A stretch of DNA of 45,897 nucleotides from an uncultured Alphaproteobacteria bacterium (GTDB lineage Bacteria > Pseudomonadota > Alphaproteobacteria > Geminicoccales > Geminicoccaceae). Below are positions 38,782 through 44,274 of this stretch, piece after piece. A program made the translations under genes and the position numbers. Numbering within the stretch: the stretch's first letter is position 1; the number at the start of each line of letters is the position of its first letter. The stretch is from NCBI GenBank assembly GCA_937926445.1, contig CALBAK010000070.1, positions 1 through 45,897 on the forward strand. Direction: 5' to 3'. The notes beneath the pieces were generated by a model, which saw only the letters and a list, made by a program, of their open reading frames with translations, was not told where the DNA came from and did no database searches.

Positions 38782-41514
38782 TCAGGCAGCGAGCGCCGGA
38801 GCAGCCTCGTCGATCGGCAGGGTGAAGCAGAGCGCAGCACCGCCGAGGTTGGAATCCTCGACCCAGATCCGCCCACCGAATCGCTCGACGATCTGCCGGG
38901 AGATGGTGAGCCCGAGCCCGGTCCCCGTCGGCTTCTGGGTGTTGAGATCGCCCGTGAGCTGGTGGAACTTCTCGAACACCACCTCGCGCTGGGCGGGCGG
39001 CACGCCCGGGCCGTTGTCCTCGACCCGGACTTCGAACACCCCGTCCTTGCGCAGAAGCTCGATCCGCACTCGGCCGCCCGGCTTCGGCACGAACTTGCTC
39101 GCGTTCGAGAGCAGGTTGAGCACCACTTGGACGACCCGGTCGCGGTCGCACACCACGGGTGCGGGTTCGGCCGGGATGGCGACCTCGAGAGCGACCGCCC
39201 GTTCGGTGAGGATGCCCTCGGCGGCGCGGACCGCGGCCCGCACGATTTCGCCCAGATCGGCGGGCGCCACCTGCCAGTCCATCCGCCCCGATTCGATCTT
39301 CGAGAGATCGAGCACGTCGTTGATCAGACGGGTCAACCGCTCCGACTCGCTCGTGATGATCCGCAGGAAATGCGCCCGCTCCTCGGCATCCAGGTCGGGA
39401 TTGTCGAGCAGGATCTCGGAGAACGATCGGATCGAGGTCAACGGGGTCCGCAGTTCGTGGCTGACCGTCGCGAGAAAGTCGTCCTTCAAGCGATCGAGCT
39501 CCTGCAGGCGCTCGTTGGCGCGCCGCAACTCGGCCGTGGCGGCCTCGAGCTCGTTCGACTTCTGCTCTAGGCGGCGACTGTACTCGAGGACTTTCTGGGT
39601 CTCGTCGAGGATCTCCATGAGCGCGTCCGGCCCGACCGTTTCGCCGCGCACGGCCGAGGCGATCACGGCGCGTGCCGAGGCGGCACCGATCGCCCGCGCG
39701 AGCTGCCGCTCGGCCCGCTCGACGAGCCCAGCATCGGCCGCCTCGTCCGGCTCGAGCGGCCGTCCACGCCGGGCCGCCTCGGTCCGCCAGACGGCGTCTG
39801 CCGCGGGCCGGCCGAGGAAGCGGACCAGGAGCTCCTGGAGCGCCCCCGCCCGCGCCTCACCGCGCCAGAGGCGGGGCGTGCGCCGGCTCTGCTCGACGTC
39901 GACGAAGAGGATCGCCTGCAGCCGCTCGAGGTCCGAGGGGCGGGTCAAGAGGCTCACCAGCACGAGCAGGCCGGTGTTGACCGCGAGGCTCCAGATCGCG
40001 CAGTGGCTCACCGGATTGAGCCCCGAGAGGCCGAAGAGGGCGGTGGGCCGCAGCAGATCGAAGCCGAAGGGACCCTCGGCTACGAGGCTGCCGGGCAGCA
40101 TGCCGGCGGTGACGAAAGAAGGCAGCACCAAGGTGTAGAGCCAAACGAGGAAGCCCGCCAGGAGTCCGGCCACCGCACCGTTGCGGTTCGCTCCCTTCCA
40201 GGCGATGCCCAGGACCAGGAGCGGGGCGAACTGGGCGACACCGGCGAAGGCGATGTAGCCGATACTCACGAGGCCCATCGCCTCGCCGACTCCGTGGAAG
40301 AAGAGGTAGCCACCGAGCAGGGCCAAGAGGATCCCGGCCCGCCGCACGCCCAGGATCAGCCTGGTGAGGTCGGGCTTGTTGGCGAGGCCGAGGGCACCCA
40401 CCCGAAGCAGGATCGGCATCACGAGATCGTTCGAGATCATGGTCGAGACCGCCACGGTCTCGACGATGACCATGGCGGTGGCGGCCGACAGACCGCCGAG
40501 GAAAGCGAGCAGCGCGAGCCAGCCCTGGCCGTGGACGAGGGGCAAGGCGAGGACGAAGCTGTCGGCCTCGCGCGTGCTGCCGCCCAGGATCAACCCGCCG
40601 AGGGCGATCGGCAGCACGAACAGGTTGATCACGAGGAGGTAGAGCGGGAACAGCCAGCTCGCCCGTTTGACGTGGCCGATCTCGAGATTCTCGATCACCA
40701 CGACCTGGAACTGGCGCGGCAGAAGGAGTGCCGCGAGCCCGGAAAGCAGGGTCAACACGAACCAGTCGGCGGCGGTGAGGCGGGTTCCGGCGAAGCCGAG
40801 CCGATCGCCGAGGCCGGCCTCGCGCGCCCGATCGAGCAGGTCGAAGGGACCGCCGAACAGGCCCCAGGTCACGAACACGCCGACCGCGAGGAAGCAGACG
40901 AGCTTGACGATGCTCTCGAAGGCGATGGCCAATACCATCCCCTGATGGTGCTCGGTGGCGTCGATGTGGCGGGTACCGAAGAGGATGCTGAAGGCGGCGA
41001 GCAGCAGGGTGACGATCAGTGCCGTGTCGGCCCCGAGGCCACTCAGTACGGCACCCGAGCCGTCGTGGGCGATCAAAAGCCCGATGCCGGTCGCCACCGC
41101 TTTGAGTTGGAGCGAGATGTAGGGGATCGAGCCCACGAGGGCCACGATCGTGACGAGTCCGGCCACGGTCCCGCTCTTGCCGTAGCGGGCGGAGGCGAAG
41201 TCGGCGATCGAGGTGATGCCGTAGGCTTTGGCGATCACCAGGATCTTGCGCACGAAGCCGACGAAGAGGAAGGCCAGGAGCGTGGGGCCGAGATAGACCG
41301 GGAGGAAGCCCACGCCCTGGGCCGCGGCGACGCCGACGCTGCCGAAATAGGTCCAGGCGGTGCAATAGACGGCGAGCGAAAGGGTGTAGACGTAGGGATT
41401 GGCGATCACCGAGCGGCCGCGCTCGGCCCGTCGGTCACCCCAGGAAGCGAGCGCGAACAGGAGCCCCAGATAGAGGAGCGAGACCAGGACGGCAGCGGTG
41501 GCGAGCGCGCCCAT
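38782..41514 (-). CDS. SLC5-type symporter / STAC / histidine kinase (CbrA-CrbS type)
   Basis: 910 residues from ATG 41514, which has GGAGAGGA on the transcript just upstream (a TTG at 41520 would add two). Residues 1 to about 500 form a sodium:solute symporter with some 13 spans, starting NPYVYTLSLAVYCTAWTYFG. A linker of about 100 residues (STAC-like) and a coiled coil (EQKSNELEAATAELRRANER) lead to the kinase: H-box FLATVSHELRTPL, N-box LNLLSNASKF, DNGPGVPP and GTGLGLTISRQIVERFGG, all intact. Relatives (CbrA, CrbS) control carbon source and acetate use. Last gene of the operon, co-directional with a receiver protein that could accept its phosphate. Confidence 0.92.
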   Translation of the reverse strand: MGALATAAVLVSLLYLGLLFALASWGDRRAERGRSVIANPYVYTLSLAVYCTAWTYFGSVGVAAAQGVGFLPVYLGPTLLAFLFVGFVRKILVIAKAYGITSIADFASARYGKSGTVAGLVTIVALVGSIPYISLQLKAVATGIGLLIAHDGSGAVLSGLGADTALIVTLLLAAFSILFGTRHIDATEHHQGMVLAIAFESIVKLVCFLAVGVFVTWGLFGGPFDLLDRAREAGLGDRLGFAGTRLTAADWFVLTLLSGLAALLLPRQFQVVVIENLEIGHVKRASWLFPLYLLVINLFVLPIALGGLILGGSTREADSFVLALPLVHGQGWLALLAFLGGLSAATAMVIVETVAVSTMISNDLVMPILLRVGALGLANKPDLTRLILGVRRAGILLALLGGYLFFHGVGEAMGLVSIGYIAFAGVAQFAPLLVLGIAWKGANRNGAVAGLLAGFLVWLYTLVLPSFVTAGMLPGSLVAEGPFGFDLLRPTALFGLSGLNPVSHCAIWSLAVNTGLLVLVSLLTRPSDLERLQAILFVDVEQSRRTPRLWRGEARAGALQELLVRFLGRPAADAVWRTEAARRGRPLEPDEAADAGLVERAERQLARAIGAASARAVIASAVRGETVGPDALMEILDETQKVLEYSRRLEQKSNELEAATAELRRANERLQELDRLKDDFLATVSHELRTPLTSIRSFSEILLDNPDLDAEERAHFLRIITSESERLTRLINDVLDLSKIESGRMDWQVAPADLGEIVRAAVRAAEGILTERAVALEVAIPAEPAPVVCDRDRVVQVVLNLLSNASKFVPKPGGRVRIELLRKDGVFEVRVEDNGPGVPPAQREVVFEKFHQLTGDLNTQKPTGTGLGLTISRQIVERFGGRIWVEDSNLGGAALCFTLPIDEAAPALAA

Positions 41515-41516
41515 CC

Positions 41517-41711
41517 TCAATCCTCTCCGGGCCGCTCGATCAGCCAGGCCGCGAGCCCGATCACCGCGCCCCAGACCGCGAAGAGGTAGAAGGGCAGGAT
41601 CGGCACGCCGCCGAGAACGGCCCGGTCGACCAGGGCGAGGGTCGGGAAGTTCAACAGCACCAGAGCGGTGAGCGCGAGTGCCACGAGCCGGGCGAGGCGG
41701 CGCTCAAGCAT
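41517..41711 (-). CDS. 64-residue two-helix membrane protein preceding the SLC5-kinase
   Basis: ATG 41711 lies inside the end of the exonuclease-fusion gene (eight-base overlap), and the stop is three bases before the SLC5-kinase ATG. The product has two hydrophobic helices, LVALALTALVLLNFPTLALV and ILPFYLFAVWGAVIGLAAWL, joined by a short loop with a DRAVLG turn, and ends IERPGED. The NFP and LYLFAVW-like pattern recurs in small proteins placed before symporter-kinases and recalls small subunits of sodium:solute symporters, so it may be a companion subunit of the sensor's transporter domain. This role is inference; there is no experimental family that I can name. Confidence 0.7.
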   Translation of the reverse strand: MLERRLARLVALALTALVLLNFPTLALVDRAVLGGVPILPFYLFAVWGAVIGLAAWLIERPGED

Positions 41712-43782
41712 CGCGGGCGGCCTCGGCGGGCCTGGCGCGCTGGCGGCGGATCTCGACCATCGAGCGGCTCGCGCGGATCGCCTCGCCGAGCGTGCCGATC
41801 CCGCGCACCTCGAGCATGCCGATCAGCCGGACCAGTATCTCGGCCGTGGCGAGGCTGTCGCCGAGGGCGGTATGGCGACCGCGAACGGCTATGCCGAGGC
41901 GGGCAGCGACCCCGTCCAGGCTGTGATCGCCCTCCTGGTCCTGGAGGAGCGCCGAGATCAAGAGCGTGTCGAGCACCGGCTGGTCGAGGCTCACCCCGGC
42001 CCGGCGCTCGTATTTGCGCAAGAGGGCCAGATCGAAGGCGGCGTTGTGGGCGACCAGCACGGCCCCCTGGGCGAAGCGGGCGAAGCGGGCCAACACGAGC
42101 TCTGGCGGCGGCTTGCCGCGGATCATCTCCGGGGTGATGCCGTGGAAGCGGATCGAGGCCTCGGGGATCGGCCGGCCCGGGTCGACGAGGCAATCGAAGA
42201 CCTCGCCGTGGATCACCCGGCCGTTGACCACCCGGACCGCGGCGAGCTGGAGGAGATCGTCGGCCTCGGTGTCGAGCCCCGTGGTCTCGCAGTCGAACAC
42301 GACGTAAGTGAGCGTGCGCAACGGCCGCGCCTCGAGCGCGCCGGCCGAGGTGGCGAGGTCGAAATCGTAGAACTCGGGCCGGGCCGGGAGCGCGGGCGCG
42401 GCGCGGACCGGGTGCACGCCCGTCGGCGGGAGGAGCGGCAGGTGCAGCGCCGCACCCTCGGCGCTGGCCGCGACCCAGGGCTCGCCGCCGTGCCGCTCGG
42501 CGATCTCGCGCGCGGCGAAGGGCAGACCGTAACGCTCGAGCCGGGCATCCAGCCAAGCATCGAACTCGGCCCGGCTCGGAGGCGCACCGGCCCAGGCGAG
42601 GCGCAGGGTCGAGCCGCTCGGCCGGGCGCGGGCGGAAAGCCGGACCTCGCGTACGCCGCGCTCGGCGAGCCACTCGACGAAGCTCACGAGCAACATCACG
42701 AGCGTCCCGCTGTCGGCGCTCGCCCACACGCTCTCGCCCTCGCTGCCGAGCTGAACCGGCATGCCGCGGGCCGCGAGCCGCTCGGCCAAGACGTTCGCGA
42801 GATCGCCCGTGGCCACGTCGTAGAGCGGCCATTGCCGCAAGGTGAGCGCGCGGGCCTCCGAGGCGAGCTCGGCCAGGAGCTTCTCGAGCCGGCCGGCCTC
42901 CTCCTCGACGACCCGCGCGAACCAGGCACTCTGCTCGTCGGGCCGGCTGTCGCGCAGCACTTCGGCGGCGGCGCGGATCGAGGCCACCGGTCCGCGCCAG
43001 GCGGTCTCGAGCTGGTCGAGGAGGCGACCGGTGCCGCCCGCCACCTGGAGACCGGCCTCGGCGATCGCGAGCACGAAGCCCTCGCTCCCCGGCGCCGCGT
43101 CACCGACCAGGCTCAACCGGCAGCGCAAGAGCCGGCCGGTCTCGCTGGCGGCGGCGATGAAAGGCTCCCCCGCTCGCGCCGAGCCGTCGCCGCCCGAGGT
43201 GCGCCGCAGCATGTCGACGTGGTAGGCGAGCGTCTCGCGGGAGACCACGTCGTAGATCGAGCGGCCGAGGCCGAGGCCGGCCGGTGCCCCGAGCAGGCTC
43301 ACCGCGGCGTCGTTGTAGAGGAGGATGCGGCCGTCGGGCGCGGCGTGCACGAGCCCCTCGCCGACATCCTTGAGGATGGCAGCGAGCCGGCGCCGGTCGG
43401 CTTCGGCCTCGGCCCTGGCGCGAGCCCGCTCCTCGGCGAGCCGTTCCTCGGCGCGGACCGCCCGGTCGAGCAGCTCGTCCAGCCGTGCCGGCAGCCCGTC
43501 GAGTGCGTGGCGCGCCGGCAACGCCGTCCGCTCGCGCCGGCCGGTGCCGAGCACGGTCTCGATCGCGCGCGCGAGCGCTCGGGCGGGCGCGAGTACGAGC
43601 CGATCGATCACGGCAGCGGCCAGGAGCAGGCCGAGCGCCAGAAGCGCGGCGATCAGGAGGGTCGTGGTACCGGCGGCCGGCGCGGTGGCGTGCAGTTTGG
43701 CCGAGGCGAACGTGCCGAGGCCCAGGGCGGCGATCGCGAGCGCCCCACCGGCGAGCCAGAGCGCGGCGCGACTCGAGATCAC
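41704..43782 (-). CDS. Membrane PAS-pseudokinase fused to a DnaQ-type 3'-5' exonuclease
   Basis: 692 residues from GTG 43782. Two membrane spans (about 7-27 and 41-60), a coiled coil (105-135), a PAS domain (135-240: ILLYNDAAVSLLGAPAG), then a kinase-like region and a C-terminal exonuclease. In the kinase-like part the H-box reads LETAWRGPVASIR (258-270), with Thr260 where histidine should be, and no N-box asparagine or G-rich lid is seen, so it should neither autophosphorylate nor bind ATP normally. The exonuclease has all DEDDh residues: Asp497 and Glu499 in FDCETTGLD, Asp584 in HNAAFD, His637 and Asp642 in HTALGD. DnaQ-like genes occur near crbS-type kinases; the fusion places a nuclease at the membrane. 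Confidence 0.85.
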   Translation of the reverse strand: MISSRAALWLAGGALAIAALGLGTFASAKLHATAPAAGTTTLLIAALLALGLLLAAAVIDRLVLAPARALARAIETVLGTGRRERTALPARHALDGLPARLDELLDRAVRAEERLAEERARARAEAEADRRRLAAILKDVGEGLVHAAPDGRILLYNDAAVSLLGAPAGLGLGRSIYDVVSRETLAYHVDMLRRTSGGDGSARAGEPFIAAASETGRLLRCRLSLVGDAAPGSEGFVLAIAEAGLQVAGGTGRLLDQLETAWRGPVASIRAAAEVLRDSRPDEQSAWFARVVEEEAGRLEKLLAELASEARALTLRQWPLYDVATGDLANVLAERLAARGMPVQLGSEGESVWASADSGTLVMLLVSFVEWLAERGVREVRLSARARPSGSTLRLAWAGAPPSRAEFDAWLDARLERYGLPFAAREIAERHGGEPWVAASAEGAALHLPLLPPTGVHPVRAAPALPARPEFYDFDLATSAGALEARPLRTLTYVVFDCETTGLDTEADDLLQLAAVRVVNGRVIHGEVFDCLVDPGRPIPEASIRFHGITPEMIRGKPPPELVLARFARFAQGAVLVAHNAAFDLALLRKYERRAGVSLDQPVLDTLLISALLQDQEGDHSLDGVAARLGIAVRGRHTALGDSLATAEILVRLIGMLEVRGIGTLGEAIRASRSMVEIRRQRARPAEAARDA

Positions 43783-43791
43783 CCCGTCGCC

Positions 43792-44163
43792 TCAGCCGAC
43801 CTCGAGCATCCGTTTGACCTGGTCGACCAAGTCGCGGGTCGAGAAGGGCTTGGTGACGTAAGCGTCGGCGCCGAGTGCCAGGCCGCGCTCGCGTTCCGCC
43901 TCGCGGCCGCGGGCGGTGAGCATGACGATTTTGGTCTTGTTCCAATCCGGGCGGGCGCGGATCCGCTCGCAGACCTCGTAGCCGTCGAACTCCGGCATCA
44001 TGACGTCGAGCAGCATGAGGTCGGGCGGTTCGCCCTCGAGCGCCTTCAGGGCCTCGCCGCCGCTCCTCGCGACCTGGACCTCGAAGCCGGCCCGGCGCAT
44101 GAGGAACTCGAGGCTCAAGACGATGTTGGGCTCGTCGTCGACCACCAGCACTCGCTTGGCCAT
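43792..44163 (-). CDS. Single-domain response regulator (CheY-like receiver)
   Basis: 123 residues, a receiver domain only. Asp9/Asp10 in VVDDEPN bind Mg, Asp53 in LMLLDVMMPEFDG is the phosphorylation site, Thr83 lies in VMLTARG, and Lys105 in VTKPFSTRDL. No DNA-binding or enzymatic output domain follows, so it acts by protein contact or as a phosphate relay. It is the first gene of the minus-strand operon, nine bases before the exonuclease fusion, and the only visible partner for the intact kinase at the operon end. Characterised CrbS/CbrA systems use regulators with DNA-binding domains, so the output here differs or is elsewhere. Confidence 0.9.
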   Translation of the reverse strand: MAKRVLVVDDEPNIVLSLEFLMRRAGFEVQVARSGGEALKALEGEPPDLMLLDVMMPEFDGYEVCERIRARPDWNKTKIVMLTARGREAERERGLALGADAYVTKPFSTRDLVDQVKRMLEVG

Positions 44164-44274
44164 CGCCGCCTCCCCGATCGACGGGACGGTCCGCGGCCGC
44201 CCGTCGATCCGTTGCTCCGGTTTCCGCCATTAGCCCCTCGCGGACAAGAGCCTAAGGGACGTATTGCCGCGGGT

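Follow-up and report, generated by a model that had tools for sequence, protein, structure and literature searches.

The window analysed here, a 45,897-nucleotide stretch of DNA (contig CALBAK010000070.1 of assembly GCA_937926445.1, positions 1 to 45,897 of the forward strand) from an uncultured alphaproteobacterium of the Geminicoccaceae, encodes on its minus strand (positions 41704-43782) a predicted membrane protein in which a PAS domain and a degenerate histidine kinase core are followed by a DEDDh exonuclease. Across the family the core has lost the residues of a working kinase and the exonuclease has retained all of its catalytic residues, and most relatives with the DHp part of the core are encoded next to a receiver-only response regulator. 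We consider it rather probable that the phosphorylated receiver is recognized by the dead core, in the manner of DivL, and that the core in turn gates the fused exonuclease.

The degenerate core and the exonuclease

Residue conservation was assessed in the window protein and 78 relatives (79 sequences; L001 and L002, from the window's own genome, and L005, which is truncated and has no exonuclease, were dropped). None of the 79 has a histidine in the phospho-acceptor column (position 260), which holds Glu in 53 sequences, Asp in 7, Gln in 5, Thr in 4, Arg in 4, Asn in 2 and Tyr, Val, Ala or Ile in one each; a histidine occurs elsewhere within columns 255-265 in nine. The N-box pattern is likewise absent from all 79 sequences. 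At the two columns of its Asn residues, 367 and 371, Asn is found in 0 and 5 rows of the 72-row alignment, and where the Asp of the G1 box would align (397) there is Trp in 69 rows and Phe in three. A D.G.G pattern is found somewhere in 14 of the 79 sequences; in the window protein it lies at the start of the PAS domain. Two hallmarks of histidine kinases, the acceptor His and the N-box Asn together with the G1 Asp, are thus missing from the family, and, as far as the alignment tells, this loss is a general family feature and not a local one. A preliminary description, made from the window alone, had named Thr260 as the residue at the phospho-acceptor place; it does align with the acceptor histidine, but Thr is not typical of the family, in which Glu predominates. 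A cryptic threonine kinase was considered and ruled out, as Thr occupies this column in only four sequences.

Other residues of the core are conserved. Arg263, three places past the acceptor, is present in 79 of 79 sequences, and the remnant of the CA domain has an invariant Trp (W353) and six nearly invariant residues (D357, S358, W397, W410, H431 and W436). Because these residues of its own are conserved, the CA remnant is probably under selection for a role other than ATP binding.

The open reading frame is real. In its 692-residue product Pfam recognizes PAS (E 4.1e-6) and RNase_T (E 7.6e-34); the HisKA match (E 1.6e-4) falls below the cut-off and HATPase_c has no Pfam match at E ≤ 1. The full-length model, built from the 72-row alignment (mean pLDDT 84.1, pTM 0.44), has two N-terminal helices, a long helix, the PAS domain, a DHp-like hairpin (residues 245-316, pLDDT 59-79 by ten-residue block), a CA-like domain (320-452, pLDDT 82-96) and the exonuclease (about 482-680), in that order; with a pTM of 0.44, the placement of these domains is uncertain. 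A profile of the 72 DHp-CA rows matches solved histidine kinases with E down to 4e-15, including DivL (4q20, E 5e-10), to which kinship is seen as profile similarity only. Since a VIA search with the whole model was filled by exonucleases, a separate model of the DHp-CA part (pLDDT 88.4, pTM 0.80) was made and compared with known structures. This model aligns with the ATP-binding domain of PrrB (VIA-align Z 14.9, 2.6 Å, 130 residues) and with DivL (Z 12.3), the latter at 13.2 Å over 195 residues, so that the likeness to DivL holds domain by domain only. The degenerate core is therefore predicted to keep the DHp plus CA fold of histidine kinases.

The five catalytic residues of the exonuclease (D497, E499, D584, H637 and D642) are each present in all 79 sequences. 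Its model superimposes on PolC (VIA-align Z 25.2, 1.8 Å, 192 residues), DnaQ (2gui, Z 21.0) and RNase T (Z about 18), so by residues and modelled fold the domain belongs to the DEDDh exonucleases and looks intact. The missing ATP-binding boxes and the intact catalytic residues of the nuclease in the preliminary description hold throughout the family, no homologue with an intact H-box or N-box having been found among the 79; the lost histidine is shared by the relatives, and the kinase-like region of that description is borne out by the model of the core.

The exonuclease is preceded by the linker motif RPEFYDFDL, which in the model lies mostly inside a low-confidence stretch (455-474). Residues 468-475 are invariant in the 72 rows, and the pattern is unmatched in 10 of 102 DHp-bearing loci of the wider set; it may serve as a peptide for docking or for autoinhibition. 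Several relatives that have no DHp retain pieces of it, for example YDFDL. Besides this protein, the genome of the window has just two matches to RNase_T at E ≤ 0.001, in frames of 273 and 179 residues, which we assume to be a DnaQ-like protein and, by length only, take to be oligoribonuclease. With a DnaQ-like protein of its own in the genome, RNA would be our guess for the likelier substrate over DNA.

The receiver and the symporter-type kinase

The dead-kinase/exonuclease membrane protein is widespread in bacteria. Among 398 genomes sampled from the phylum 51 have a match at E ≤ 1e-60, and among 389 sampled from the class 55 have one at E ≤ 1e-50, short DHp-less relatives being counted in both cases. 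The regions of 20 of the phylum genomes were used, 30 short loci (L082-L111) remaining unused; 40 of the class genomes were used, four were already in the set or were the window's own, and the 11 weakest were left out. When domains were scored separately in 128 loci (138 minus seven with short flanks and three duplicates), a receiver gene adjoined the exonuclease gene in 88 of the 94 loci with DHp, compared with one of the 34 without. A symporter-type kinase was encoded nearby in 77 of 88 DHp loci, against 0 of 32 DHp-less ones.

Both neighbours appear intact. The alignment of receivers scoring above 90 bits has 97 members, with three near-duplicate loci counted in; D53 is conserved in 96 of them and K105 and T/S83 in all. 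The C-terminal tail of the receivers beside the exonuclease is at most 8 residues long in 86 of 89 and 13-25 in the other three; with such short tails these receivers carry no output domain. The H-box His, the N-box and the G2 box are present in all 35 partner kinases examined and the G1 box in 34. A strict H-box pattern missed 16 of them, and a looser one was used, which gave SHELRTPL in 19 and THELRTPL in 16. A 25-row profile of the N-terminal part of these kinases matches the solved chain 10ed ('histidine kinase', E 1.2e-100); SSF is recognized in 14 of the 25 aligned members, the match of the window's own kinase (0.005) lying below the cut-off. In seven loci (L037, L039, L041, L044, L045, L010 and L015) there are two receiver genes, one on the exonuclease side and the other beside or upstream of the symporter kinase gene.

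In the mechanism that we propose, the symporter-type histidine kinase would sense a small carboxylate or a related carbon signal and phosphorylate the receiver-only response regulator. The phosphorylated receiver would bind the dead core at its DHp hairpin, on the surface used for docking in a live kinase. The pseudo-kinase, anchored at the membrane and acting together with PAS, would move in response and so switch the DEDDh exonuclease on or off. The output of a live kinase would then be a nuclease instead of a transcription factor. The links between these proteins are suggested by gene neighbourhood, residues and precedent. The preliminary description suggested that the kinase part may have a sensory or scaffolding role. 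The intact receivers, and their occurrence together with DHp, sharpen this idea to receiver docking; docking, its dependence on phosphorylation and gating are what we infer.

An unlikely alternative is a structural relay, in which PAS would sense a ligand and the dead DHp-CA hairpin would pass the movement to the exonuclease, the receiver serving the symporter kinase and being present through operon history. It would suit the conservation of the PAS domain (N157 and G171 are invariant in 72 rows), the short relatives L112-L116, which consist of the N-terminal part, PAS and exonuclease and have no DHp-CA, and the fact that symporter kinases elsewhere have a single receiver of their own. Two observations argue against it. 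Relatives L118-L121 have PAS, a recognizable CA remnant and, in place of a scored DHp, a shortened stretch of it, and they have no receiver; they are informative intermediates on the question of which part of the core reads the receiver. In addition, the exonuclease-side receiver tracks DHp and not the kinase. In family f13, which is probably Rhodobacterales because its locus L141 groups with a Paracoccus locus, nine DHp-less genomes retain the symporter kinase and the receiver beside it elsewhere in the genome. When the exonuclease-side receiver of G386 was used as the query (G175, another f13 genome with the full triad at L141, was left out of this search), its matches in G277 (78%) and G341 (73%) were both encoded beside the exonuclease, and in the nine DHp-less genomes, which have no close exonuclease-side match, the best genome-wide match was the kinase's own receiver, at 39-47%. 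A plain loss of everything in the DHp-less genomes is ruled out by the same nine genomes. In f13 the twelve receivers beside the kinase fall into a single starred set of the receiver tree. A second such set (98%) unites those beside the exonuclease in G277, G386 and G341 with the receiver of L144, a locus from a different family; the receiver of G175 is placed elsewhere. The receiver of the window groups with the exonuclease-side receivers of its own relatives.

Several points weigh against receiver docking on the dead core. DHp is present without a neighbouring receiver in six loci (L031, L053, L075, L129, L137 and L145), and L117 has a receiver without a scored DHp, in G341, one of three genomes of the close-receiver type. 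The exonuclease tree requires six or more changes of DHp and twelve of the receiver. The test of the link on this tree yielded six independent pairs, few as evolutionary events go, and no significance; as only one pair is on starred branches, the correlation is not statistically established. Gain and loss of DHp cannot be told apart on this tree, and the joint presence could come from insertion or deletion of a single operon. The kinase-side receivers need five changes in the receiver tree and form no single clade overall, and that tree, based on 121 columns, has long branches, one of them attached to the kinase-side set. Likeness to the window protein guided the choice of the first 79 loci, which favours long forms. 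Finally, because the DHp-less relatives keep the exonuclease without this input, its regulation cannot be the core function of the exonuclease.

Alternative explanations and carbon physiology

The neighbourhood may connect the exonuclease with the use of carboxylates. Where the flanks examined extend 3 kb or more on each side, they contain a gene for a DUF294-type nucleotidyltransferase at 45 of 63 loci with DHp and at all 32 without it, compared with a rough chance expectation of 1-2% (arithmetic from three copies in one 3.7 Mb genome); a representative protein carries DUF294, cNMP and CBS domains. With duplicates included, ActP-type symporters are encoded near 16 of 102 DHp and 22 of 36 DHp-less loci, and acetyl-CoA synthetase near 8 and 10 of them, respectively. 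In Pseudomonas putida the operon of PP_0354 (CBS) and PP_0353 (RNase_T) is reported among the targets of the acetate system MxtR/ErdR; PP_0353 is needed for normal growth on pyruvate, its loss delaying growth, and its precise role is called unclear, with a speculation by the authors on mRNA decay (PMC9927547). The CrbS/R target Pflu5625 of P. fluorescens is described as having cAMP-binding, CBS and nucleotidyltransferase domains (PMC5715377) and would, in our reading, correspond to PP_0354. On these precedents, and on the DUF294, ActP and acetyl-CoA synthetase neighbours, we assign the exonuclease to a module for carboxylate use that would be controlled differently in different lineages: by transcription in Pseudomonas and, as proposed, at the protein level here. 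The preliminary description held that a nuclease as the output of carbon sensing was unexplained. That remains true of the mechanism, by the wording of the P. putida study; but since the PP_0354-PP_0353 operon answers to MxtR/ErdR, a nuclease under carbon-sensing control is already partly known.

These neighbours suggest a further alternative, which we regard as improbable, namely that the DUF294/CBS nucleotidyltransferase adds nucleotides to a protein or an RNA end and the exonuclease removes them, the kinase-derived part being one of several controls. The frequency of DUF294-type genes well above chance and the operon of PP_0353 with a CBS protein are in its favour, as is the grouping of DUF294_C with GlnD/GlnE-type nucleotidyltransferases (PMC3710099). 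At L075 a gene for a DUF294-CBS-cNMP nucleotidyltransferase (L075:8002-10356) begins 4 bases downstream of the exonuclease gene, and its product is a possible writer to the exonuclease's eraser. Against this alternative, 18 of the 63 DHp loci have no DUF294 gene in their flanks and there is none on the window's contig, the best match in its genome being on contig C100. In the same-genus locus L140 the exonuclease gene is preceded at about 5 kb by a DUF294-type gene; the equivalent place would fall past the end of the window. Joined to receiver docking, the same idea would give a two-component system without a transcription factor that acts on a membrane-tethered exonuclease as the eraser of DUF294/CBS nucleotide marks, a signal-gated write-and-erase switch for carboxylate uptake; we mention it as a long shot.

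That the core is still a kinase, acting through Thr or Glu or by unusual ATP chemistry, is very unlikely: the CA-like fold is well predicted and has conserved residues of its own, but the acceptor place varies over ten residue types and the N-box Asn and G1 Asp are gone. A sequencing error or local decay, conceivable in a draft assembly of 120 contigs, can be dismissed, as the acceptor His is absent from all 79 sequences from many taxa and the near relatives L003 and L004 (83-84% identity) have the same residues there as the window protein.

If true, receiver docking as the control of a nuclease would add a further, widespread case of reversed signalling, with an enzyme as the direct output and in a gene cluster small enough for reconstitution. 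Exonucleases of the kind that belongs to an acetate/pyruvate regulon would thereby gain a molecular role open to testing. Direct control of such a nuclease at the protein level would be new, as would a variant of the DivL scheme that ends in an enzyme; that such nucleases are linked in a general way to carbon sensing is partly in print. Among the matches listed from open-licence PMC papers, judged by title and start of abstract, none concerned a kinase-exonuclease fusion or this operon, which is no proof of absence.

The locus, its relatives and known systems

The coordinates of the features are given in Table 1. The receiver gene is the first of a putative operon, its stop codon lying 9 bases before the start codon of the exonuclease gene; the listed TTG start of the symporter kinase, whose boxes are intact, lies 183 bases downstream of the exonuclease gene. 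Beyond position 44264 a divergent gene encodes an ABC-F-type ATPase (Pfam ABC_tran, E 3.1e-52, and ABC_tran_Xtn), presumably EttA, and genes for MlaA and MlaC are located past the symporter kinase.

Table 1. Features of the exonuclease locus in the window
Feature	Position	Strand	Details
Receiver-only response regulator	43792..44163	minus	123 aa; Pfam Response_reg, E 2.3e-30
PAS - pseudo-histidine-kinase - DEDDh exonuclease membrane protein	41704..43782	minus	692 aa; GTG start at 43782
Two N-terminal helices, putative membrane spans	43543..43773	minus	residues 4-31 and 35-80 of the AlphaFold2 model
PAS domain	43057..43368	minus	residues about 139-242; Pfam PAS over 132-195 and model
DHp-like helical hairpin	42835..43050	minus	residues 245-316
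Thr260 at phospho-acceptor place	codon 43003-43005	minus	within DHp-like hairpin
Arg263, invariant, acceptor +3	codon 42994-42996	minus	within DHp-like hairpin
CA-like domain, no N-box or G1 Asp	42427..42828	minus	residues 319-452
Linker motif RPEFYDFDL	42355..42381	minus	residues 468-476
DEDDh 3'-5' exonuclease domain (DnaQ/PolC type), predicted	41743..42309	minus	residues about 492-680
Symporter-type (SSS/SLC5) histidine kinase	38782..41520	minus	912 aa from the listed TTG; HisKA 7e-22, HATPase_c 3.3e-27

Relatives on plasmids are best matched in Paracoccus; none of 502 records covers 80% or more of the query. Large Paracoccus plasmids such as NZ_CP035092.1 encode an 'exonuclease domain-containing protein' that matches residues 136-672. 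The triad was also seen in two metagenome-assembled genomes labelled Thermoleophilaceae (Actinomycetota) and Calditrichaeota (L047 and L078), which group among proteobacterial sequences and represent either transfer or mis-binned contigs. Four short relatives (L146-L149), which possibly represent the basal form of the family, have little beyond an N-terminal stretch and an exonuclease preceded by the linker or by its start; a DUF294-type gene is found on the opposite strand within 8-619 bases.

Histidine kinases of the WalK/VicK type have the layout TM-HAMP-PAS-DHp-CA. The family profile matches VicK (4i5s) over positions 47-471 (E 1.3e-26), and the best Foldseek matches are WalK (9a5d) and VicK (4i5s); unlike these kinases, the family has no acceptor His, N-box or G1 Asp and has gained a C-terminal exonuclease. 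With DnaQ, PolC and RNase T it shares the fold and all five catalytic residues but differs from them in being membrane-anchored, by prediction, and in having the RPEFYDFDL linker and a signalling module ahead of the nuclease.

The PP_0354-PP_0353 operon is similar by description, with an RNase_T-type exonuclease and a CBS protein tied to a symporter-type kinase and to acetate and pyruvate, and the DHp-less relatives found here are located in a similar neighbourhood. Like CrbS/CrbR (MxtR/ErdR), the present system has a symporter-type histidine kinase. In contrast to ErdR, which is described as binding DNA and controlling transcription (PMC9927547), the regulator here has no DNA-binding domain: a LuxR-type output was not found in the 123-residue receiver-only protein of the window, nor in the receivers beside the exonuclease in its relatives, whose tails are at most 25 residues long in 89 of 89.

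The closest parallel is DivL/DivK of Caulobacter. DivL is described as a dead kinase with PAS domains through which the phosphorylation state of DivK is read out, and its R553A substitution weakens binding of DivK~P, which Y550H at the acceptor place does not (PMC4211667). As in DivL, the acceptor His is replaced in the family studied here, the ATP-site residues are lost by alignment and an Arg is kept at acceptor +3; from its shared distance to the acceptor, Arg263 may be the equivalent of R553. A receiver-only regulator, the presumed partner, is the neighbour gene in nearly all DHp loci, and the reported joint absence of DivK and the pseudo-kinase part of DivL in Rhodobacterales (PMC9430884) mirrors the joint absence of DHp and receiver here. 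Childers et al. see a need to investigate how widely nature makes use of such reversed signalling, in which the signal passes from a receiver to a dead kinase (PMC4211667). The two systems differ in their output: DivL is described as acting on the kinase CckA, whereas the dead core of the window protein is fused to the DEDDh enzyme that it would control.

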